Below are positions 2,802-63,438 of a stretch of DNA of 64,000 nucleotides, piece by piece. Made by a program: the position numbers and the translations under genes. Position 1 is the first letter of the stretch; each line of letters opens with the position of its first letter. Source of the DNA: Lachnospiraceae bacterium. Lineage in GTDB: Bacteria > Bacillota > Clostridia > Lachnospirales > Lachnospiraceae. The notes beneath the pieces were generated by a model. It made no database searches. It saw only the letters and a list, made by a program, of their open reading frames with translations, and was not told the origin of the DNA. Location: positions 62,001 to 126,000 of the forward strand of contig JAFVSN010000004.1 in assembly GCA_017503735.1 (NCBI GenBank), written 5' to 3'.

Positions 2802-2830
2802 ATTATACCATTTATGGCGCATTTTTGCAA
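2802..2830 (-). promoter_or_regulatory. sigma-A promoter of the chemoreceptor gene
   Basis: TTGCAA, 17-nt spacer, TATAAT on the minus strand, placed about 60 nt upstream of the chosen start codon. Confidence 0.75.
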
Positions 2831-2887
2831 GTCTTTTTATTATTTTTCATAAATTTGTATGTACAATATCTGTAGTCCAGTCCGTTT

Positions 2888-4684
2888 TTACGTAGAAATA
2901 ATAAATTTTTTATATTTTTCTATGAAAATTTTTGAATTCTTCTCTCCACGGTACTCATCAACCCCCGGTGAAAACGCCAAAGTAAGCCGTATTTTCCTTC
3001 GTCCGCGATAAAGCTCCCGCACCGTATCCGCTCCGAACTCCTCTGTCAAATAGTCTTCCAGTCCGTCCGCATCTTGAAAAAAAAGTCCCGTCAGTGAGAT
3101 TCCCTGCGTGTCCGTCAATTGAAGCCGCATGGAATTCCCGTCCTTCCCGATACGACGTATTCCGCTTACCGTTACACCGCTTGATGCAAACACCGGCTTC
3201 GGATTTCCGTTTCCGAAGGGCTCCAGTCGTTCCAGCTCCCCCATCAAATCTTCCGTTATTTCCGCAAAGGGTAGAACCGCATCCAGGTACAGCTTCGGTG
3301 TCAGTTCTTCCTGTGTAAGTCCCGCTGCTTCATTTAAGCGTTCCGCCAGCAAACTCACATTCTCCTCCGGCAAGGATAATCCCGCTGCCATAGGATGTCC
3401 TCCGAAAGCAAGCAACAGCTCCTTCTGCTCCGAAAGCTTTTCAAACATGGAATACCCCTCGATGGAACGGGCCGACCCCTTCACACAATATTCTCCCTTC
3501 GTCAGAACAACCGTAGGCCGGTAAAATTTCTCTCTGATACGCCCTGCTACAATCCCTGCCAGGCTCTCATGACATTCCGGCAGATACAGCACCAGCACCT
3601 GCGCATCTGTTTTTGCAAGCTGCGCCTCTGCCAGTGCCTCCGCTTGTCTCGTTGCCGCCAAGGTCATTTCTTTTCTGGTATCGTTCAGCTCCTTCAAATG
3701 GGCTGCCCTTTTTTTTGCCTCCGTCTCATCCTCACAAAGCAACAGCTCCAGCCCCAAAAGGGCGGTATCCAGTCTTCCTGCCGCATTAAAGCACGGTCCG
3801 ATTAAAAAGCCCGCATGATAAGCACTAAGCTTCTTGTCCTCCAGTTCATATGCCTGTAAAAGCGCACGAATCCCCTGATTGTCGCAGCTGCCTGCCAGGG
3901 CAAGTCCCTTTGCAACCACAGCCCGGTTTTCTCCGGTCAGCTCCATTACGTCACAAATCGTAGCAAATGCCACCGGAACCAGAAGCTCCGTAAGGAGTTC
4001 TTCCCTCTCTTCCTTCGACAATCGTCCTTCTGCCTCTTTAAGTAAAAGACAAACCACCTTGTATGCCACCATTGCCCCGCAAATTCCCTTTTGCGGATAG
4101 GTTTCTCCCGGCTGCTTCGGATTCACGATAACATCTGCCGACGGCAATTCATAACAAGTCTGCTCCCCCACCGTGGAACAGGAAATCTCATGGTGATCCG
4201 TAACAATCACCTCCATCCCGGCTTCCCCGGCGCGGGCAATCGGCTCCATTGCCGCAATTCCGTTATCACAAGTAAGAAGCAGAGCAATGTGATCCTGCTC
4301 TGCTTCTTCTACCATCCGCATATTCATGCCGTATCCGTCCTTAATACGGTCCGGAATACGGTAATCTGCCTCTGCCCCCAGAACATGAAGTACTTTATAT
4401 AGAAGAAACGTTGCCATAATGCCGTCCACATCATAATCTCCGATGATGCGAATTCTGCGTTTCTTGCAAACGGCACGCCATAACCGCTTTGCAGCTTCCC
4501 CGGCATTCTTTAATAAAGAAGCGTCATGTAACGGTACCTCCTTCGGATTCAGATACGCCCGTATCTGCTCCGGCGTCGTCACTCCCCGATTTACCAGCAC
4601 CCGGCAAATCACCTTGGAAAGTCCTACCTTATGTTCTGATACATCAAACTCAGCCTTTTTATTTTTCAATATCCATTCTGTCAT
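2888..4684 (-). CDS. recJ: single-stranded-DNA-specific exonuclease RecJ
   Basis: A 598-residue RecJ, the 5'-3' ssDNA exonuclease of recombination and mismatch repair. Phosphoesterase motifs of the DHH superfamily are visible: DYDVDG (residues 83-88), CDNG (about 139-142), DHHE (163-166), and later the DHHA1 signature FGGHPMAAG. A C-terminal OB-like region (GVTVSGIRRIGKDGNSMRLQ) completes the usual order, so the gene is full length. The chosen start overlaps the end of the upstream lipoprotein gene by 26 nt and has a GAGGAAG ribosome binding site inside that gene, so the two are probably translationally coupled. Confidence 0.95.
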   Translation of the reverse strand: MTEWILKNKKAEFDVSEHKVGLSKVICRVLVNRGVTTPEQIRAYLNPKEVPLHDASLLKNAGEAAKRLWRAVCKKRRIRIIGDYDVDGIMATFLLYKVLHVLGAEADYRIPDRIKDGYGMNMRMVEEAEQDHIALLLTCDNGIAAMEPIARAGEAGMEVIVTDHHEISCSTVGEQTCYELPSADVIVNPKQPGETYPQKGICGAMVAYKVVCLLLKEAEGRLSKEEREELLTELLVPVAFATICDVMELTGENRAVVAKGLALAGSCDNQGIRALLQAYELEDKKLSAYHAGFLIGPCFNAAGRLDTALLGLELLLCEDETEAKKRAAHLKELNDTRKEMTLAATRQAEALAEAQLAKTDAQVLVLYLPECHESLAGIVAGRIREKFYRPTVVLTKGEYCVKGSARSIEGYSMFEKLSEQKELLLAFGGHPMAAGLSLPEENVSLLAERLNEAAGLTQEELTPKLYLDAVLPFAEITEDLMGELERLEPFGNGNPKPVFASSGVTVSGIRRIGKDGNSMRLQLTDTQGISLTGLFFQDADGLEDYLTEEFGADTVRELYRGRRKIRLTLAFSPGVDEYRGEKNSKIFIEKYKKFIIST

Positions 4685-5687
4685 TTTCTTCCTCATCCGT
4701 TTGCATAAGCTCGGCGGTCTTTGTCGCAATATGATTCCTCTTTTTCAGCTTCAGCTTTTTCCTTACAAAGAGAATCACTACGACAAAAATCGCAACCCAA
4801 ATCACCAGATACAGGAAGTTCGATACCAACCAGACAAGGAAATTTGCTCCCCCTTCTTTCATCTGATACCAGGTATTTGAAAAACCGTCTTTCATCCTGG
4901 TAAGTAAGGTAGGATTCTGCTCCACCGGTGTGGTACGCTTCACTTCCGAAATATCCAAAGTTACCGTAGAATAATCTACCTTGTTATCATAAATCTTAAG
5001 CATGGAAGCATGCGATTCTATTTCGTATCGGAGTTGCGTCAGATGCTCTTCCAATACGATAATGGAATCTACCGTATCTGCCTTTTCAAGCAGGGCCAGA
5101 AAACGTTCCTGCTCAATTTGCAAAGATTTCAATCTTGCTTCCGTATCCGCATACTGCAATGTAACATTTTCCGCATTCTCCGACTTACGGACTACATTTG
5201 CGTTCTCACTGACACCGGACACGAACAAATCCAGCTTACTCTGCGGAATGCGAAGGGTAAGCGTCGCATAGCGATATCCGTAAGAATCCATACTGTTTCC
5301 GCTAATCTGTGAATTCTGTATGTAACCTCCAAGCTCTGCCACCTTTCCGTCTAAATAGGAAAGTAAAGTTTCGAACTCCTTTGTTTGCAACGACATGGTA
5401 ACTGTACGAATCAGTTTTTCCCCCTGTGTGTTATACAATTCCGTCTCCGCATAGCCCTGTTCACCAAACCCGATTCCACTGTTTCCGGTAGCGGAATCCA
5501 TGGTTGATTCGAACTCCATATCTGCCATGGATTCGGACTTTGAATAATACATATCACCGACGGAATTTGTGACATACTCTCCTCTGCCGTCAACCGCCTC
5601 CATCATCATGTCGCTTGCTTTTCCGCCGCATCCGCCAAAAAGCAGAACTCCGATGGTTCCCATAACCAACCAAATCTTCTTTTTCAT
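4659..5687 (-). CDS. DUF4349 domain lipoprotein
   Basis: A 342-residue predicted lipoprotein. The N-terminus MKKKIWLVMG is followed by a hydrophobic stretch and the lipobox LFGGC. The body has the DUF4349 character: paired beta-rich segments (RTVTMSLQTKEFETLLSYL, YATLTLRIPQSKLD) around a long helical coiled-coil region (about 180-260), then a single strong membrane segment near the C-terminus (VWLVSNFLYLVIWVAIFVVV) and a basic tail. This makes it anchored at both ends with its main domain outside. Function of the family is not established. The start is supported by GGAGAGGAG upstream. It shares 26 nt with recJ. Confidence 0.85.
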   Translation of the reverse strand: MKKKIWLVMGTIGVLLFGGCGGKASDMMMEAVDGRGEYVTNSVGDMYYSKSESMADMEFESTMDSATGNSGIGFGEQGYAETELYNTQGEKLIRTVTMSLQTKEFETLLSYLDGKVAELGGYIQNSQISGNSMDSYGYRYATLTLRIPQSKLDLFVSGVSENANVVRKSENAENVTLQYADTEARLKSLQIEQERFLALLEKADTVDSIIVLEEHLTQLRYEIESHASMLKIYDNKVDYSTVTLDISEVKRTTPVEQNPTLLTRMKDGFSNTWYQMKEGGANFLVWLVSNFLYLVIWVAIFVVVILFVRKKLKLKKRNHIATKTAELMQTDEEENDRMDIEK

Positions 5688-5809: not shown

Positions 5810-7195
5810 TTATTCAAGTCCCGTCAAATGATCTTTATCCCGCAAAAGCCCGTCTTCCGTGAAAAACATGCCTGCATTCCACAACAGCCACTCATCATAG
5901 CCTGCGGAATAAGTAGCGGATATCTGGGCACGGATTTCCTGGGCACCGTAGGTTAGATATTTCCCTTTTCCGAGATAGCTGGCGGTAAAATCCTGCAACC
6001 AAGGGCGAACCTCTGCTTTATGTTCTCCCTCCGGAATCACGGACAATTTCTTTACGGAGGATTTCATTTCCATCAAAATAAGCTGGAACGGTTTGGTATC
6101 CGGATACTTTATTCCGCCGTATCCCGAACTGTAATGGGACGGATATATCATCGGACAAATATAGTCCAGATAACGGCTCAGTTCCACATAGCTCTGACCG
6201 ATACTCTCACCGTCTAATCTGCTGTTTATAATCGTTCCGAACACATCACCGCTGACAAAGACACCCATCGGCTTTAATTCCTGACATGCATATTTCACAA
6301 ATCCGGTAATCGCATCGATTTTCGTCATACCTTCCGGAATCTCGCCCAGATCCGCAGAAGAAAACGAACCGGATGCGGAGGTACGCAAATAGTCGAAGTT
6401 AATCTCGTCAAATCCCGCTTCCGCAGCTTCCTTTGCCACTTCTACAATATATTCCCAAGCGCCTTCATTGTACGGGTTCAACCAGCGTTCCCCTTCTTTA
6501 TCTTTATAAATAGAACCATCTTTGTTACGCACCGCAATTTCCGGATTGTTTCTTGATGCCACATGGTCCTTAAAAGCCACGATACGAGCAATACAATAAA
6601 TATCATGCTCCTTAAGCTTCGCTACAAACGCCGGCAAATCCGCAATGTAGATGTTCTCCGCACCCATTTCCTCCAAGAGCGGATGTTTTACATCAAACAA
6701 AAGATTCCCGTAATCATCTTTGATATCAATTACCATAGCATTTAATTCCGTCTTATCCAAAAGCTCGATTAACTCATCTATGGTTGCATAGTTTTCCTTT
6801 CCCAAATAAGTCGTATTCACATAAATACCCTTTGCATCGGTTCTTACTCTGGTATCCACAAAATCTGCCAAAAAGCCATCCGGATACACCGTCTGCTGTA
6901 CTGTCGGTTGCATCGGCACATCGGTTGGTTCCGGAGTAAGTTCCGGTGTCGGGCTAGGCTCCGGCGTAGGCGTTGCCTCCTGGGTTTTTACTTCCTTCCT
7001 TTCCATAAAAAAATCAACCGCCAGATAAGTTCCCAAACCAAGCATAACAGAAATCAAAAGCACCACAAAAAAGCCCAACAGGCGGTTGCTTTTCTTTTCC
7101 TTATATAATTTCCCGAAGTCAGGACCGGCTGTTTTATTTTTCTTACGCCGGCTCTTTTGTCCCGTATACATTCGTCTTCTTCTCATATCCTTCAT
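5810..7195 (-). CDS. membrane-anchored putative glycoside hydrolase (DUF4015)
   Basis: A 461-residue single-pass protein: a strongly basic N-terminus (RRRRMYTGQKSRRKKNK), one membrane segment (about 40-62), a proline/threonine/glutamate linker (TPTPEPSPTPEL, typical of wall-crossing spacers), then a TIM-barrel-like domain of the DUF4015 family. Family blocks include NAMVIDIKDDYGNLLFD, YCIARIVAFKD, FDEINFDYLR and YICPMIYPSHYSSGYGG. The family is grouped with glycoside hydrolases by fold; substrate is unknown, though a wall-associated glycan is a reasonable guess. The start could be either of two nearby ATGs (MKDM); the first has AGGAAAG upstream. Confidence 0.82.
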   Translation of the reverse strand: MKDMRRRRMYTGQKSRRKKNKTAGPDFGKLYKEKKSNRLLGFFVVLLISVMLGLGTYLAVDFFMERKEVKTQEATPTPEPSPTPELTPEPTDVPMQPTVQQTVYPDGFLADFVDTRVRTDAKGIYVNTTYLGKENYATIDELIELLDKTELNAMVIDIKDDYGNLLFDVKHPLLEEMGAENIYIADLPAFVAKLKEHDIYCIARIVAFKDHVASRNNPEIAVRNKDGSIYKDKEGERWLNPYNEGAWEYIVEVAKEAAEAGFDEINFDYLRTSASGSFSSADLGEIPEGMTKIDAITGFVKYACQELKPMGVFVSGDVFGTIINSRLDGESIGQSYVELSRYLDYICPMIYPSHYSSGYGGIKYPDTKPFQLILMEMKSSVKKLSVIPEGEHKAEVRPWLQDFTASYLGKGKYLTYGAQEIRAQISATYSAGYDEWLLWNAGMFFTEDGLLRDKDHLTGLE

Positions 7196-7304
7196 CCCAT
7201 CTTTCCTGACATGATTTCCGCATGTCACACTATCCTATCATTATCTTATTGCAAAGCCCTGTATTTGTCAAGGTGAAAGACCTTCTTCCCACTCTTAAAA
7301 AGAA

Positions 7305-7333
7305 AAAAGACAGCCACATCGAAGCTGTCTTTT
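7305..7333 (-). terminator. rho-independent terminator after the SEC-C gene
   Basis: Ten-pair stem (AAAAGACAGC / GCTGTCTTTT) with a 9-nt loop; on the minus strand it is followed by TTCTTTTT. It lies 30 nt beyond the stop codon of the SEC-C gene. Confidence 0.85.
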
Positions 7334-7362
7334 CCTTATTTGTTTCAATCAACACACAAACC

Positions 7363-7869
7363 TTATGCATTTGCACCGCAACACTTCTTATACTTCTTAC
7401 CGGAACCGCAAGGACACGGATCATTACGACCGATTTTCTTATCCTTTACTACCGTACCGGACTTCTTCTGCTGTAAATACAGTTCTTTTCTACGTTCAAC
7501 GGTCAATAGGTTATCCCACTGCGGAAGTTCATACAACCATTCGGCATCTGCGCCTACCATATTATAGTAAAGCTTTTCCTTATCCCATTCAAGACGTACC
7601 TTCGTATCCTCCGTCATCTCCTCGATCGGATTCGGTGTTACAAGGCTCTCGTTAATTCCGTCTAAAAATCCTACCATAATCTGAAGCGGAGTTTCGTATT
7701 TTTCAGCCAACTCTTTTACCGTACCTTCTTCCACCATTTCCGGATTGGAAAGAAGCTTCTCATAAATTCCTGTCTCAATTACAAAATAATTATTCCAGAA
7801 CATCTTTCCTTCTTTGGAATTGATGTCAAGCGAATACGCACTTTCACGCCATTCCTGTAATAAACCCAT
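7363..7869 (-). CDS. SEC-C motif protein
   Basis: A 168-residue soluble protein ending in a classical SEC-C zinc motif ([18 protein letters not shown]), the same metal-binding tail found at the end of SecA. The N-terminal 130 residues are acidic and helical ([25 protein letters not shown]) and are seen in many clostridial genomes as a stand-alone SEC-C protein; function unknown. The ribosome binding site is GAAAGGAACGAGG just before the start. Monocistronic between two terminator-like hairpins. Confidence 0.85.
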
Positions 7870-8070
7870 AACCTCGTTCCTTTCAAAAAAAAATTTAAAT
7901 CTTTTGTATAAGCCGGAAAACTGCGGCTATACTATACTCAGGTACAAGATTTCCAAAACGGAATCCTGTACGTCCGGTATCTACCGGAGTCCTTCTTTTC
8001 TGATTCCCCCTCAGAAAAGAGAGCTTACAAAAGAAAGCAAAAAAACTTATCCTCCCCTTTTATATCGAGC

Positions 8071-8102
8071 AAAGACTGTTATTCGAAAGAATAACGGTCT
8101 TT
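8071..8102 (-). terminator. terminator-like hairpin downstream of the Suf pair
   Basis: Fourteen-pair stem with one G-U pair, closed by a GAAA tetraloop (AAAGACTGTTATTC-GAAA-GAATAACGGTCTTT). It lies 50 nt past the end of the SufBD-like gene. The plus-strand side is followed by the more T-rich tract (GTTTATTTT), so it may work in both directions. Confidence 0.65.
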
Positions 8103-8151
8103 GTTTATTTTAACCGCGGAACCTGCTTTTGTCAAGTATGCGGTCATTTCC

Positions 8152-9069
8152 TTACTTCAAAAAGCCGTTTACAATTTGCGCTTCCGCTTCTTCCTCCGTA
8201 AGCCCTAACGTCATCAGCTTAATGATCTGCTCGCCTGCAATCTTACCGATAGCAGCCTCATGAATCAGGCTTGCTTCCAAATGATTTGCGGTAATCTCCG
8301 GAATCGCACGAACACTGGCAGAGTCCATAATAATGGCATCACACTCCGTATGTCCCGCACAGGCATTGTTTCCGTTAATCTTTGATAAGAACACCTGATG
8401 GGAAGTGTCCTTTGCCACGGAACGTGAAATAACATTTGCGGAAGAACCGGCACCGTTTAAGTCTACGGTAAACTCCGTTTCTGCAAACTGCTTCCCGTGA
8501 GTCATCAGCTTTTCTTTGATTACAAGCGTTGCTCCCTCGCCCAGTTCAGCCTTTGTCACACGCTTTGTGGAATCCACACCCTTAATCTGCACCGTGTCCA
8601 TTTCCATATAAGCGCCTTCCTCAAGCACCATTTCCGTAGTCGGATTCATAATCCGCTCTCCGGTGCCTTCTCCGCTGCCGTAATGCTTTTCTACATATTT
8701 AATCTTAGCATTCTTCTTTAAAAAGAAGCGATGAATTCCGGAATGCTCGGAAGCAGCATCACCGCCGTTATGGATGCCGCACCCTGCCACAATGGTCACA
8801 TCGCAGTCCTCCCCGATATAAAAGTCGTTATATACCAATTCTTTTAAGCCGGTTTGACTAAGAAGTACCGGAATGTGTACGCTTTCGTTTTTGGTTCCCG
8901 GCTTAATAATAATGTCAATGCCGGAAACATCCTCCTTCGGCACAATATCGATATTTGCAGTCGTATTTCTGCCACCGAGACTACCGTTGATGCGAAGATT
9001 ATAAGCACCTTCCGGCACCTCATGAAGCCCTGCGATCTGTTCCAGTAATGTTCTTTGTATTTCGTCCAT
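8152..9069 (-). CDS. SufB/SufD-like Fe-S assembly scaffold (single-gene, minimal SUF type)
   Basis: A 305-residue member of the SufBD family, about two thirds the length of SufB. The right-handed beta-helix core is recognisable in runs such as GIHRFFLKKNAKIKYVEKHYG and TNPTTEMVLEEGAYMEMDTV, followed by the C-terminal helical part (SVRAIPEITANHLEASLIHEAAIGKI) with the conserved HEA.IGKI element that contacts the ATPase. It is paired with a SufC-like ATPase 30 nt upstream and nothing else: no SufD, SufS or SufU is adjacent. This matches the minimal two-component SUF-like systems described in archaea and anaerobic bacteria. Ribosome binding site AGGAGAGG. Confidence 0.85.
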   Translation of the reverse strand: MDEIQRTLLEQIAGLHEVPEGAYNLRINGSLGGRNTTANIDIVPKEDVSGIDIIIKPGTKNESVHIPVLLSQTGLKELVYNDFYIGEDCDVTIVAGCGIHNGGDAASEHSGIHRFFLKKNAKIKYVEKHYGSGEGTGERIMNPTTEMVLEEGAYMEMDTVQIKGVDSTKRVTKAELGEGATLVIKEKLMTHGKQFAETEFTVDLNGAGSSANVISRSVAKDTSHQVFLSKINGNNACAGHTECDAIIMDSASVRAIPEITANHLEASLIHEAAIGKIAGEQIIKLMTLGLTEEEAEAQIVNGFLK

Positions 9070-57452: not shown

Positions 57453-58631
57453 TTAGTGGTGGAACAAACGAATTCCGGTGAAGCACATTACCATGTTATG
57501 CTTGTCCGCTGCTTCGATCACAAGATCGTCTCTAACGGAACCGCCCGGCTCTGCAATATACTTAACGCCACTGCGGAATGCACGCTCAATGTTGTCGGAG
57601 AACGGGAAGAATGCGTCGGAACCGAGAGCTACGTCGGTCATGGTATCAAGCCAAGCACGCTTTTCTTCTCTGGTAAATACTTCCGGCTTCTCCTTAAAGA
57701 TACGCTCCCAAGCACCGTCAGCCAATACATCCATGTAATCCTCACCGATGTAAAGATCAATTGCATTGTCGCGGTCTGCTCTGCCGATTTTATCTAAGAA
57801 CGGAAGGTTCAATACCTTCGGGTTCTGGCGAAGATACCAGTTATCTGCCTTGCTGCCTGCAAGTCTGGTACAGTGAATTCTGGACTGCTGTCCCGCACCG
57901 ATACCGATTGCCTGACCACCCTTTACATAGCACACGGAGTTGGACTGGGTGTACTTTAAGGTAATAAGGGAAATGATAAGGTCAATACGAGCAGACTCCG
58001 GTAAATCCTTGTTTGCGGTAACGAAGTTGGAAAGGAGCTCATCGTCTACCTTTAACTCATTTCTGCCCTGCTCGAAGGTAATTCCGTAAACTTCCTTGCG
58101 CTCAAGCGGCTTCGGAACATAATTCGGGTCAATCTGAATTACGTTGTATCCGCCCTTCTTCTTCTCCTTTAAGATAGCGAGAGCCTCCGGAGTATAGCCC
58201 GGAGCGATAACGCCGTCGGAAACCTCACGCTTAATGATGCGTGCGGTGCATTCGTCACAAACATCGGAAAGAGAAATAAAATCACCGAAGGAAGACATAC
58301 GGTCAGCACCTCTTGCTCTTGCATAAGCACTTGCCATCGGGGTAAGCTCTCCCATGTCATCTACCCAGTAAATCTTTCTCTCCACTTCGGTAAGCGGAAG
58401 ACCTACTGCTGCACCGGCCGGGGAAACATGTTTAAAGGAAGTTGCAGCCGGAAGACCGGTTGCCTTCTTTAACTCGTTTACCAACTGCCAGCCGTTAAAT
58501 GCATCTAAGAAATTGATATAGCCCGGTCTGCCGTTTAATACGGTAATCGGGAGTTCACTGCCGTCTTCCATGAAAATTCTGGACGGCTTCTGATTCGGGT
58601 TACATCCGTACTTTAATTCGAATTCGTTCAT
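57453..58631 (-). CDS. stand-alone AICAR transformylase (PurH C-terminal domain type)
   Basis: A 392-residue protein equal to the AICARFT half of bifunctional PurH, using 10-formyl-THF to formylate AICAR. Recognisable are [13 protein letters not shown], the substrate segment [58 protein letters not shown] and [16 protein letters not shown]. The MGS-like IMP cyclohydrolase half is absent, and the cyclisation is instead supplied by the PurO-type gene immediately upstream. AGGAGGC precedes the start. Confidence 0.93.
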
Positions 58632-58689
58632 AATGTGCCTCCTGTCAATCTCTGCTTTCTTAAACTTTCTATCCTGTATTCGGAACGTC

Positions 58690-59403
58690 TTACTTGTTCT
58701 TATTTACAATTCTGGTTTCGGTAGTACCGGTTACGATATCAATGTAGCGAACAAACAAGGAAACCTTATTCTCTTCGTTTAAGTTCGTCCACAAAAGCTC
58801 GGTGTAAGCATCGATATCATCTACAGTATCCACAAGCTTCGGCTCACCCTCAAAGCTCGGAAGCGGATTACCGTCTCCCATGTAAGTATGGATAAAATGT
58901 CCCTCGCCCGCCTTCGGATCATTGTATGCAAAGTTGTAACGATGGCAGCTGCTCGGATCACCGTTGTTGCTCTTTAAGATAGACATTGCATAGTTATATG
59001 CACCGGCTCCCGTATGTAAAATACCGGAAATACGAGGAGTGTAGTTCGGAGCATCCGGCTCGAACTCTCTGGTACGAAGCGCCTGCTCAAAGGTCTGCTG
59101 CTTATCCATCAATTCATAGATGGTGTCGGTCTGGTCACCGTTGGTAACGATGGTCTTGTTGCCAAGAACGCGTACCGGAGCATAGATAATTAAGCTCGGA
59201 TCACTTAATTTGCTCGGATCAAAGGCTTCCGTACGGATGCCGTCACCTTCGGTAACAAACACACGATTTCTGCTGTTCTCACTTCTACCCATGATAAAAT
59301 ACGCGGTCACTGCATACTTTCCGTTCGGAGACTTACCGATAATAATACCTCTGCCCGGATAAGAATTGCTGCTCAGTTCCTTTTGAATGGATTTCATTTC
59401 CAT
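58690..59403 (-). CDS. purO: IMP cyclohydrolase, PurO type
   Basis: A 237-residue protein of the archaeal-type IMP cyclohydrolase family, closing FAICAR to IMP. Family blocks: [75 protein letters not shown] and [10 protein letters not shown]. It precedes the AICAR transformylase by 58 nt, together replacing PurH. First ATG chosen, 8 nt after GAGG. Confidence 0.9.
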
Positions 59404-59580: not shown

Positions 59581-60402
59581 TTATTTTTTCATTTCGCGGC
59601 TGCGATAATTTCGTATTCCCTGTAAAATCAATTGCCGCTTTTGTTTTGCAAGCTCCACATCCATTTCCGGTACCCCTTCCAACCGGTAGTGAATTCCCAG
59701 TTCCTTGTATTTGGAAGATCCCATCGTATGATACGGCAATACTTCTACTGCCTGCAAATTGGAAAACCTGCCGATGTATTCTCCCAGACGAATCAACTCT
59801 TCTTCCTCGTCGGTATATCCCGGAACCGCCACTCTGCGAACCCAGACCGGAACATTTCTTTCCTCTAAAAACTCCAAGAACGCAAACACCGCTTCATTGG
59901 AATGGCCGGTCAGACTACGATGGACTTCCGTATCCATGTGCTTGATATCCAGCAACACCAAATCCGTCACAGCCAAAAGATCTTCAAACTCCTTTAGCGA
60001 CATTCCTGCACCGTAGTTTCTGATTTCTTCATGGATTCCGTTCTGCGCTTTTTCCCATCCGTTTGAATTTTTCCGAAAAGAAAACAAAATACCGGAGGTA
60101 TCCAGGCAGGTAGAAATACCCTTCTTCTTTGCCTTTTGAAACAATTCCGTTACAAAATCCGACTGAGAAAGCGGTTCTCCTCCGGAGACCGTAATTCCGC
60201 CGTTTCTGTAATAGGTTTGATTCCGAAGAAACTTCTCAATCAGCTCTTCGGAAGACATCAAAGTCCCCCGTTTCTCTGCCCAGGTATCCGGGTTATGACA
60301 GTAAGCACACCGCATCGGACACCCTTGCAGAAAAATAACCATCCGGAGCCCCGGACCGTCTACCGTTCCGAAACTTTCCACAGAATGAATCCATCCCTGC
60401 AT
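59581..60402 (-). CDS. pflA: pyruvate formate-lyase activating enzyme (radical SAM) with insert
   Basis: A 273-residue radical SAM activase that makes the glycyl radical on pyruvate formate-lyase. The cluster motif CPMRCAYC (Cys28, 32, 35) follows the typical start WIHSVESFGTVDGPGLR; also HNPDTW, ITVSGGEPLSQ, TDLVLLDIKHMD and PVWVRRVAVPGYTD. Compared with Escherichia coli PflA about 27 extra residues (FSFRKNSNGWEKAQNGIHEE and on) lie between CLDTSG and LLAVTDLV. Its ATG overlaps the stop of the glycyl-radical gene by one base (TAATG), so translation is coupled. Confidence 0.93.
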   Translation of the reverse strand: MQGWIHSVESFGTVDGPGLRMVIFLQGCPMRCAYCHNPDTWAEKRGTLMSSEELIEKFLRNQTYYRNGGITVSGGEPLSQSDFVTELFQKAKKKGISTCLDTSGILFSFRKNSNGWEKAQNGIHEEIRNYGAGMSLKEFEDLLAVTDLVLLDIKHMDTEVHRSLTGHSNEAVFAFLEFLEERNVPVWVRRVAVPGYTDEEEELIRLGEYIGRFSNLQAVEVLPYHTMGSSKYKELGIHYRLEGVPEMDVELAKQKRQLILQGIRNYRSREMKK

Positions 60403-60644
60403 TAAATCACCTCATGGAAGGTACGAGAAATCACCTCGTCCTGCTGTTCTTTTGTAAGCTTATTAAAGTTTACCGCATAGCCGGACACACGTACCGTAAG
60501 CTGTGGGTACTGTTCCGGATGCTTCTGTGCATCCAAAAGCATTTCGCGGTTTAACACATTCACATTTAAATGATGACCGCCTTGCTCTACGTATCCGTCC
60601 AATAACGCTACCAAATTATCGATTTGATTCAAATCTGCTGCCAT
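60402..60644 (-). CDS. separate glycyl-radical domain protein of pyruvate formate-lyase
   Basis: An 80-residue protein equal to the C-terminal domain of PFL and to GrcA/YfiD spare parts: [18 protein letters not shown], then [19 protein letters not shown] with the radical glycine at Gly55, then [16 protein letters not shown]. The start MAADLNQ is set by AAAGGGG 7 nt upstream, 14 nt after the stop of the catalytic gene. It is in a different frame from that gene, so it is not a readthrough product. As the upstream chain lacks this domain, the two must act as a complex. A sequencing frameshift is an alternative, but the ribosome binding site and start argue against it. Confidence 0.85.
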
Positions 60645-60658
60645 AGGTCTGCCCCTTT

Positions 60659-62755
60659 CTATTCTGAGGTGCCGTAGTCCGGTTCTGCCGGCTGACACGC
60701 CGGACCGCAACACCCCTCACCAAGTTCCAGTGCCAAATCACCGGAAAGCACAACACTTTCTTTACCAAGTGCTCCCGGAATTACCGTAAAGGTATTGGAA
60801 ATGCCGTCCTGCGCATCCCGGAACGGAAGCTTAGATACAGACGCCAAAGATGCAATCGCACCGAGCTTGTCTCTTCCGTGCATCGGATTTGCTCCCGGTG
60901 CAAACGGTTCTCCTGCTTTTCTTCCGTCCGGTGTAGAACCGGTATTCTTACCGTACACTACATTAGACGTAATGGTAAGAATGGAAGTGGTCGGAATACC
61001 ACCGCGATAAGTGTGGTTTCCCTTAATATACTGCATAAACGTGTGAACTACTTCTCTTGCGATTTCATCCACGCGGTCATCATCGTTTCCGTACTTCGGG
61101 AAATCACCTTCCACTTCATAATCCACCGCAATACCGTCGGCATCACGGATTACCTTTACTTTTGCATACTTAATTGCAGAGAGGGAGTCTGCCACAACGG
61201 AAAGTCCCGCAATACCGGTAGCAAACCAACGGGTCACTTTCTTATCATGAAGCGCCATCTGCAATTTTTCATAACAATACTTGTCATGCATAAAGTGAAT
61301 AATATTTAAGGTGTTCACATATACACGGGCAAGCCATTTCATCATCTCGTTGTACTTATGCATTACCTCGTCGTAATCCAAATACTCGGAAGTAATCGGT
61401 CGATATTCCGGTGCTACCTGCTTTTTCGTAATCTCGTCCACACCACCGTTGATGGCATAAAGCAGACACTTTGCAAGGTTTGCTCTTGCTCCGAAGAACT
61501 GCATTTCCTTTCCGACACGCATGGAGGACACACAACATGCAATCGCGTAATCGTCGCCGTGGGTTACACGCATCAAATCGTCATTCTCGTACTGAACCGA
61601 AGAAGACTCAATGGAAACCTTTGCGCAGAACCGCTTAAATGCCTGCGGAAGTCTGGTGGACCAAAGCACGGTCATATTCGGTTCCGGTGCCGCCCCCAGA
61701 TTCTGTAACGTATGCAGATAACGGAAAGACATCTTTGTTACAAGCGGTCTTCCGTCGATTCCGATACCGCCGATGGACTCCGTCACCCAGGTCGGGTCGC
61801 CGGAGAACAATGCATTGTATTCCGGTGTTCTTGCAAACTTCACCAGACGAAGTTTCATAATGAAATGGTCTACCATTTCCTGTATTTCATCTTCTGTAAA
61901 GGTTCCTTCCGCAAGGTCACGCTGTGCATAGATATCAAGAAACGTGGAGGTTCTTCCGAGAGACATCGCCGCACCGTTCTGTTCCTTTACCGCAGCAAGA
62001 TAGCCGAAATACAACCACTGGATTGCCTCCTGTACATTCTTTGCCGGTCTTCCGATATCAAAACCGTAAATCTCACCAAGTTTTTTCAAATCCTTTAGGG
62101 CACGAATCTGCTCGGACAGTTCTTCACGGTCACGAATTACGTCGGAATACATAATCGTACGGGTGGAATTCTTCTGATCTTCCTTATCTTCAATCAAACG
62201 ATCTACACCGTAAAGTGCCACACGTCTGTAATCGCCGATGATCCGTCCTCTGCCGTAAGCATCCGGAAGTCCCGTGATAATATGACTGGAACGGCATGCA
62301 CGCATCTCCGGGGTATACGCATCAAATACACCCGCATTATGGGTTTTACGATGTATGGTAAAAAACTCTTCCACCTGCGGGTCAAGGGTATAACCGTTGT
62401 CGCTGCAAGCCTTTGCCGCCATACGGATTCCGCCGTACGGTTGCAAAGAACGCTTAAACGGCTTGTCCGTCTGAAATCCTACAATTTTTTCTTTCTCTTT
62501 ATCTAAATAGCCCGGACCATGGGAAGTAATGGTTGAAATCACGCTGGTGTCCATCTCCAGCACACCACCGGCTTCCAGCTCTTTCTTCGACAACTCCAGT
62601 ACCTGTTCCCAAAGTGCCTTTGTCGCCTCCGTCGGCCCTGCCAGAAAGGATTCATCACCTTCGTAAGAATCGTAATTTTTTTGAATGAAGTCTCTTGTGT
62701 TTATTTCCCGTTCCCAAACACCTGATTTAAAACTTCTCCATTCTTCGCGCATCAT
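60659..62755 (-). CDS. pflB: pyruvate formate-lyase catalytic chain lacking the glycyl-radical domain
   Basis: A 698-residue chain covering the PFL barrel. Signatures: [15 protein letters not shown], the pyruvate site with Cys407-Cys408 in [25 protein letters not shown], and [37 protein letters not shown]. It ends shortly after [17 protein letters not shown] with a cysteine-rich tail ([19 protein letters not shown]) and TAG, just where the C-terminal radical domain (about 80 residues) should begin. That domain is encoded next as its own ORF. A promoter (TTGCTT-N17-TATAGT) lies upstream; AGGAG precedes the start. Confidence 0.92.
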
Positions 62756-62886: not shown

Positions 62887-63438
62887 TTATCTTCTCTTTC
62901 CAAGCAGTTCCATACGGATGTAGGAAAAGGTTGCTTCTTCCCCTTCCTCTGCCAACATGACCAAAAGTTTTTCCAACAACGCCACGGTTTCCGGATGCAT
63001 GAGATACTTTCCTTCTCCTCTCCTATAATAAGCCAACGGATCTTTTTGTGTATACCTTTCTTTGTTGTACACTTTACTGGCTGCTACCCGGTCACAAAAC
63101 ATTTCCAACACATAGGGGAGAGGCATTTTCATACCTGCAAGTTCACATTCCGCATCCTTCTTATAATCAATCCAGTACTCGTAGTGATGTTTGTTGCGCC
63201 CCTTGTGATGCATCCAGGCCGTTGCCACTCCTTCTACCTCACGTTGAATATTATTGGGACTCACATTCCCACGGAAATATTTTACACCCACAAAAAACTC
63301 AGCCGGAGAATACTTTGACAAATCATGAAGCAGTCCTCGTTTATACAATCCCAACTTAAAACAGTGTTTCATCACCATACGCTTATGTTTATTGATGGTA
63401 TGAAGATGTCCGAAAAAACGCTGCATCACGTTTGCCAT
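62887..63438 (-). CDS. DUF5662 family protein
   Basis: A 183-residue basic protein with many histidines in family-like positions: MQRFFGHLHTINKHKRMVMKHCF, LLHDLSKYSPAEF, and WMHHKGRNKHHYEYW. The pattern HD...HH.K..HH recalls a metal-dependent HD-like phosphohydrolase and matches DUF5662, which is common in Firmicutes and phages; no activity is established. Promoter TTGACA-N17-TAAACT lies upstream. Confidence 0.82.
   Translation of the reverse strand: MANVMQRFFGHLHTINKHKRMVMKHCFKLGLYKRGLLHDLSKYSPAEFFVGVKYFRGNVSPNNIQREVEGVATAWMHHKGRNKHHYEYWIDYKKDAECELAGMKMPLPYVLEMFCDRVAASKVYNKERYTQKDPLAYYRRGEGKYLMHPETVALLEKLLVMLAEEGEEATFSYIRMELLGKRR

Follow-up and report, generated by a model that had tools for sequence, protein, structure and literature searches.

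A 64,000-nucleotide (nt) stretch of contig JAFVSN010000004.1 from a Lachnospiraceae bacterium (assembly GCA_017503735.1), called the window here and used for all coordinates, encodes pyruvate formate-lyase (PFL) on two polypeptides. The gene order is PFL large chain, 80-amino acid (aa) radical protein and pflA, all on the minus strand. The large chain (60659..62755; TIGR01255, PF02901) is a catalytic chain of 698 aa and 78.2 kDa without the radical glycine. Its stop codon TAG (60659..60661) is followed by AAAGGGG (60652..60658), a Shine-Dalgarno-like site of the small gene. A base-by-base check showed that the ATG of the small open reading frame (ORF; 60402..60644) comes 14 nt after this TAG and that the ORF is in a different frame. 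It encodes a GrcA3-type glycyl-radical protein of 80 aa (NF038360; PF01228 positions 50-106), in which Gly55 of the motif RVSGY (codon 60480..60482) is the counterpart of the radical glycine. The stop codon TAA of the small gene overlaps the ATG of pflA in TAATG (60400..60404), and pflA (59581..60402; TIGR02493) encodes a PFL-activating radical S-adenosylmethionine enzyme of 273 aa. The initial annotation of the window had described the split catalytic chain and free radical protein with TAG, 14 nt, AAAGGGG and TAATG, and this was confirmed base by base.

Two chains that together cover the PFL model

The large chain matched TIGR01255 with 1097.5 bits (cut-off 994.2) over model positions 2-667 of 744, and PF02901 with an E value of 9.4e-221. 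The TIGR01255 match stops at position 667, and the radical glycine was not found on this chain. The small chain spans positions 665-743 of the same model, and the two chains together cover it. The Pfam Gly_radical model is divided between them, with positions 1-49 on the large chain and 50-106 on the small chain. Numbered after E. coli PFL (1h16), the large-chain core extends to about 677, and alignment of the small chain begins at 683. The small chain, a glycyl-radical domain that stands alone and contains RVSGY, scored 162.3 bits against NF038360 (GrcA3), above the cut-off of 158, and PflA scored 287.5 bits against TIGR02493 (cut-off 231.75). The adjacent cysteines that mark a PFL are on the large chain, where Cys407-Cys408 (codons 61532..61537) align with Cys418-Cys419 of 1h16 and are invariant across the 34 split chains of alignment A1. 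Past the PFL core, the large chain has a C-terminal tail (60662..60757) made up of an acidic segment and a Cys module, GCCGPAC.

Conservation of the junction

The window comes from a draft assembly of 58 contigs, which leaves room for the explanation that the split is a sequencing or assembly error or a decaying pseudogene. However, the same junction was kept in eight of ten genomes of the genus, the window's included, with TAG, 14 nt, AAAGG[G/A]G (8/8 split loci), ATG and TAATG (identical in the 8/8 loci read), while other bases varied. Because the junction recurs in relatives in this way, a sequencing error or frameshift is excluded, by the relatives and not by reads. The split is also present in named records, both of isolates such as Blautia caecimuris, Claveliimonas bilis and Ruminococcus albus and of [Clostridium] citroniae and a Holdemania, and the catalytic residues are invariant in the 34 split chains. 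We regard the probability of an error or pseudogene as negligible; the observed split is real. The initial annotation had allowed that close relatives might all carry a fused gene. This does not hold, and the split, the ribosome-binding site and the TAATG coupling are kept in these eight genomes. No GrcA3 was found in the genus genomes G007 and G008 (88 and 87% complete), and G008 has a fused PFL of another subtype. In a loose test, a Shine-Dalgarno-like site was present ahead of 156 of 157 small genes (duplicate loci counted). Locus L278 (G247:C4) is unlike a true split: it has a fused PFL apparently broken by a frameshift, with overlapping frames and no new tail, and is likely a true frameshift.

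PFL content of the genomes and spread of the split

In the window genome (94.6% complete), a search with PF02901 and PF01228 gave one match to the former and two to the latter, all in this operon, and no hidden second PFL was found. This agrees with the statement of the initial annotation that no intact PFL is present and that the radical is always carried in trans, and the second intact PFL that could have overturned it did not appear. As no intact PFL was found in the genome, the separate 80-aa chain is the sole possible source of the radical glycine. It is highly probable, on sequence grounds, that this PFL is the only one of the cell and an obligate two-chain enzyme.

We surveyed 294 genomes of the order with at least 90% completeness, taking ORFs of 80-141 aa as stand-alone copies. 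At least 73 of them have a stand-alone GrcA3 copy; G159, which has a small ORF near a contig end with 68% identity and no large chain in L279, was left out of this count. A TIGR01255 search at E 1e-60 covered 80 genomes, namely the 73, three more of the genus and four with fused genes. All 76 split genomes contained a truncated chain or its pieces (broken by contig ends in G161 and G031), and 74 of the 76 contained no intact PFL at this threshold, the other two being G295 and G318. One might suppose that GrcA3 is a mere repair part as YfiD is, and that the large chain is completed by read-through or frameshifting at TAG. According to PMC8683613 and PMC12338860, YfiD/GrcA does rescue oxygen-cleaved PFL, with the same domain. 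However, the small gene has a frame, a start and a Shine-Dalgarno-like site of its own, many relatives have a long gap with another gene, or pflA, between the two genes, and 74 of the 76 split genomes have no intact PFL to repair. This explanation is very unlikely.

The obligate two-chain enzyme does not appear to be a peculiarity of one organism, as the split is, by these sequence searches, common in the order. The initial annotation was too narrow in this respect, and the small protein is already catalogued as GrcA3. Outside the order, two split cases (G684, G700) were found in a phylum-wide draw of 398 genomes (matches at E <=1e-25). A split PFL is also present at L223, in a record titled Pleomorphochaeta, a spirochaete; either the gene crossed from one phylum to another or the contig was mis-binned. 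L138 (G024:C118:62500-71500; minus strand, 2829-3107, 3122-5458 and 6207-8477) holds a split glycyl-radical enzyme of a second kind. Its two large chains are nearest TIGR01774 (PFL2/glycerol dehydratase type, under the cut-off), both end before the radical domain, and one 93-aa radical protein lies behind the second of them. Among the matches listed at E 1e-16 in the 294 genomes, only GrcA3 and no other stand-alone protein of the L138 type was found.

A third protein and its Cys module

Many relatives have more than 140 nt between the two genes. These long gaps are explained by the fact that they read as protein: at 65 loci, the gap or a nearby stretch encodes a third protein of 60-86 aa. Its first half corresponds to that of GrcA3 (I/V-D-x-L-V-x-M-L-D ... 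G-H-x-N; hhalign probability 96.8, E 2.6e-10), and the glycine loop (RVSG or VSGY) is present in none of the 65. Its second half is a Cys module, with C-x(1-7)-AC in 64 of 65, which is akin to the tails of large chains that have grcA3 close behind (probability 96.9, E 1.4e-10). The Cys-rich tail (EGCCGPACQ) that the initial annotation had placed at the break is therefore present, but it is not just a tail, being one form of a module that relatives carry on a third protein. We read the tail of the window as a degenerate form of their C-x(n)-AC-x-x-P module.

A profile was built from 20 third proteins (alignment A2), some of them trimmed by eye to a later Met, and was run on 26,058 ORFs of the collected loci. 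At a domain E of <=1 there were 65 full, 232 N-half and 32 tail-only matches, and each of the 32 tail-only ones stops no more than 12 residues short of the end of a long ORF. With reversed and shuffled ORFs, the profile had no matches. The third gene starts with ATG in 63 of 65 cases, and 51 of 65 have 5 or 6 of 6 matches to the Shine-Dalgarno sequence, although the start was picked partly by that site. In 20 greedy pairs, dN/dS was 0.05-0.20 in ten and 0.32-0.80 in the other ten, which are mostly distant loci; the values point to purifying selection in close pairs. Three members were scanned against Pfam and NCBIfam and fall outside both, the N-half only touching NF038360 far under the cut-off (E 1.5e-4 to 5e-3). 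Weak CobW-like matches were likewise under the cut-off, and there was no credible PDB match. The reading of the Cys-rich tail as a module is new here, and the third protein is uncatalogued in Pfam, NCBIfam, PDB and the literature searched.

Other contents of the long gaps were also considered. Structured RNA was rejected, as Rfam gathering scores gave one match in 20 loci, a signal recognition particle RNA outside the gap. Promoters were rejected as well, with 8 of 66 gaps against 8.7 in mononucleotide shuffles. As for terminators, a home-made test for a hairpin followed by T gave 12 of 66 against 5.4 in such shuffles.

Cis and trans placement of the Cys module

Among 153 distinct split loci, 79 have a tail with at least two Cys, and a third gene is present in none of these 79. 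A third gene is present in 61 of the remaining 74 (Fisher p 3e-30, not corrected for kinship). The cis tail and the trans third protein were never both in view and are mutually exclusive in the loci read. The exceptions among the 74 are of several kinds. The third protein is encoded elsewhere in the genome for L087, L094, L128 and L154, its copy is shortened at L108 and L153, the tail has one Cys at L257 and L258, and L278 is the frameshift artefact described above. No module was found for L144, L204, L218 and L237, of which the L204 and L237 records hold only 1.1-1.2 Mb. The gene order at L087 (G279), L094 (G322) and L128 (G299) is pfl, pflA and grcA3. The third protein was found in none of 62 fused loci, 19 of which are short.

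Genome-wide, and among the matches listed, matches that reach the second half of the third protein were found in 53 of the 73 split genomes (in G021, a stop interrupts the copy), and the other 221 genomes drawn had none. The tail was read in 17 of the 20 remaining split genomes (G188, G224 and G240 were left out); the module is in cis in 16, and G193 has it in neither form. The re-fused G273 and G149 have no third-protein match, and in G229 and G320 the sole match is an N-half one to the fused protein itself. The window has the module in cis and in a worn form, GCCGPAC, of which the seven mates of its genus keep only CC. The placement changes at least nine times among 29 tree rows, or eight times among 39, so that the swap between cis and trans happened repeatedly; 200 shuffles of the 39-row set gave a mean of 12.5 changes and a lowest value of 9, and weak branches inflate such counts. 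An earlier comparison of Cys tail with gap length (at least two tail Cys in 71 of 74 loci with a gap of <=75 nt and in 13 of 83 with longer gaps) used an arbitrary 75-nt cut, and its tree-aware test had only four pairs (median p 0.25). It is superseded by the comparison of cis with trans.

The third protein might be a by-product of grcA3 duplication without a role in PFL, for example a small Cys protein that is co-transcribed by chance, and in four genomes (G279, G299, G322, G011) it does lie away from the PFL genes. However, its second half is confined to split genomes among the matches listed, it never occurs together with a tail of two or more Cys (0/79), and it appears to be under purifying selection in close pairs. 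A by-product is unlikely.

For the module itself we tentatively propose, as a possibility and not a probable outcome, that in cis or in trans it occupies or marks the docking site and governs the loading of GrcA3. The main rival is a metal or disulfide switch instead of a docking element; it would sense oxygen or redox state and, once oxidised, close the barrel or release GrcA3. The presence of two or more Cys in 79 of 153 tails, the C-x(1-7)-AC motif in 64 of 65 third proteins and the restriction of the module to split PFL and the re-fused L143 would be in keeping with such a switch. However, the number and spacing of Cys vary, two loci keep a single Cys and no module was found in four. The switch is in our view rather unlikely.

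Fused relatives

Trees were built on large-chain cores with the junction left out, and cores under 560 aa and L278 were dropped. A tree of 85 rows used representatives at 86-88% identity, and a tree of 46 rows was hand-picked. In the latter, a single branch (99/97) sets apart 31 of 32 split rows along with five fused ones, namely L143 and a group of four. The approximately unbiased (AU) test on this tree rejected placing the four outside the split clade (p = 0.0006), and likewise L143 (p = 0.005). L237 is placed elsewhere in the tree, and a single origin of the split that includes it was not rejected (p 0.30). The tree requires at least four changes, for which one or two splits and two re-fusions are the simplest reading; several independent splits are possible. 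Being nested in the split clade, the fused genes have the look of re-fusions. In L143, a Cys-rich stretch persists where its two parts are joined, as a re-fusion would be expected to leave it. That kin have the two chains fused is an argument that the separate chains work together.

Extra grcA3 copies and neighbouring genes

Eight genomes have two stand-alone grcA3 copies, and the neighbours of the extra copy were read in six of them; the copy in G256 was left out of this reading. The extra copy of G214 (L134) immediately precedes thioredoxin and rubrerythrin genes, and that of G223 (L131) is divergent from desulfoferrodoxin, thioredoxin and rubrerythrin genes. This is the place expected for a spare or replaceable part. 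The copies in L098, L129, L130 and L133 are near what we take to be a spoIIIA operon. The extra copy in G137 (L135; G137:C97:1000-3834) belongs to a second cassette of third protein, grcA3 and pflA, and no large chain was seen on its short contig.

In the window, a DUF5662 protein is encoded upstream of the PFL gene (62887-63438, minus strand). Downstream of pflA (57453-59403, minus strand) are a stand-alone 5-aminoimidazole-4-carboxamide ribonucleotide (AICAR) formyltransferase (NF005492) and a separate PurO-like inosine monophosphate (IMP) cyclohydrolase (PF07826); judged by these family matches, purH is likewise in two parts. A scan of the stretch for promoters and terminators was near chance level.

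Discussion

PFL is destroyed by oxygen, which cuts its chain at the radical glycine; E. coli has a spare part for this event. In the two-chain enzyme described here, the large chain would bring the substrate site and the Cys407-Cys408 pair. Docked in the gap of the barrel, GrcA3 would supply the final strand along with the glycine loop and the C-terminal helix. PflA of the same operon would place the radical on Gly55, from which it would pass to Cys408; this step follows the mechanism of E. coli PFL, for which PMC12338860 states that GrcA takes the hydrogen from Cys419. If oxygen cleaved the radical chain at Gly55, only a replaceable 9-kDa part would be lost. Complex formation, activity, subunit exchange and the role of the Cys module are what we infer from these data.

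At its start, the third protein repeats the helix and the barrel strand but has no radical loop. According to PMC8683613, residues 696-733 of cut PFL aid the docking of YfiD. The large chain lacks this docking stretch and the third protein restates helix and strand, and for these reasons the third protein, or the Cys tail in cis, might stand in the socket and aid the loading of GrcA3, which would make the radical part routinely replaceable. A wider and doubtful extension is that many Lachnospirales-like Firmicutes have a PFL of up to three parts: the barrel, GrcA3 as a disposable radical plug, and a dummy plug that lacks the glycine and bears the Cys module. The dummy plug would fill or mark the socket while the radical plug is charged, lost to oxygen or missing from one half of the dimer. 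Elsewhere, the species of the window included, the Cys module would be welded to the barrel. Dummy plug and Cys module could thus turn the one-off repair of YfiD into routine exchange.

Several observations weigh against an obligate two-chain enzyme with a replaceable radical part. When E. coli PFL was truncated to residues 1-695, activation of YfiD decreased 32-fold (PMC8683613). The large chain of the window stops even earlier than 695, and docking must therefore work differently here. Four of the six extra grcA3 copies read show no recognised oxygen-defence neighbour. On the larger and quickly searched 85-row tree, the test for L143 gave p = 0.057, above 0.05. Separation of the chains is not indispensable, since two lineages seem to be re-fused within the split clade and G008 has a fused PFL with no GrcA3 found.

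If the two-chain reading is true, the fragile, oxygen-sensitive radical piece of a key fermentation enzyme could be swapped out in this gut-type bacterium and many of its relatives. These organisms would then offer a natural test of glycyl radical transfer between polypeptides, of radical-subunit turnover in the cell and of the recovery of obligate anaerobes from exposure to air. As to how an open PFL barrel stays safe and is reloaded, the uncatalogued third protein may be a handle.

The split itself is not new, as the small protein is already catalogued by NCBIfam as GrcA3; it is a known but little described variant, and in the literature searched no paper was found that describes the split PFL or the third protein. 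The small chain of the window is by score a member of NF038360 (autonomous glycyl radical cofactor GrcA3), but nothing in the name and scores of that family points to a truncated PFL as partner, to the Cys module or to a third protein. The PDB entries 38la and 38lb, both titled Formate acetyltransferase, have chains of 687 and 739 residues. Both align with the window chain up to the point at which split large chains stop, and 38lb runs about 45 residues further. Among PDB sequences, neither a radical subunit from these entries nor a third protein was matched. By this comparison, two split-type large chains seem to have been solved already.

The large chain is like PflB (TIGR01255; 1h16) over the whole core, in the catalytic Cys pair and in the neighbouring pflA. 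In contrast to E. coli PflB, the counterpart of about 683-757, including Gly734, is on another polypeptide. The small chain shares the C-terminal radical domain with YfiD/GrcA (TIGR04365; 6owr) and probably works in a like manner. However, it scored only 98.4 bits against TIGR04365, below the cut-off of 170, with a match to positions 66-124 only, and it has no equivalent of the 60-residue N-terminal region of YfiD. Its PFL-like part begins at E. coli position 683, compared with about 693 in YfiD (PMC8683613). Unlike YfiD, it has no intact PFL to repair, as none was found in the window genome (G000). What E. coli keeps as a spare part seems to be the normal part in these anaerobes.

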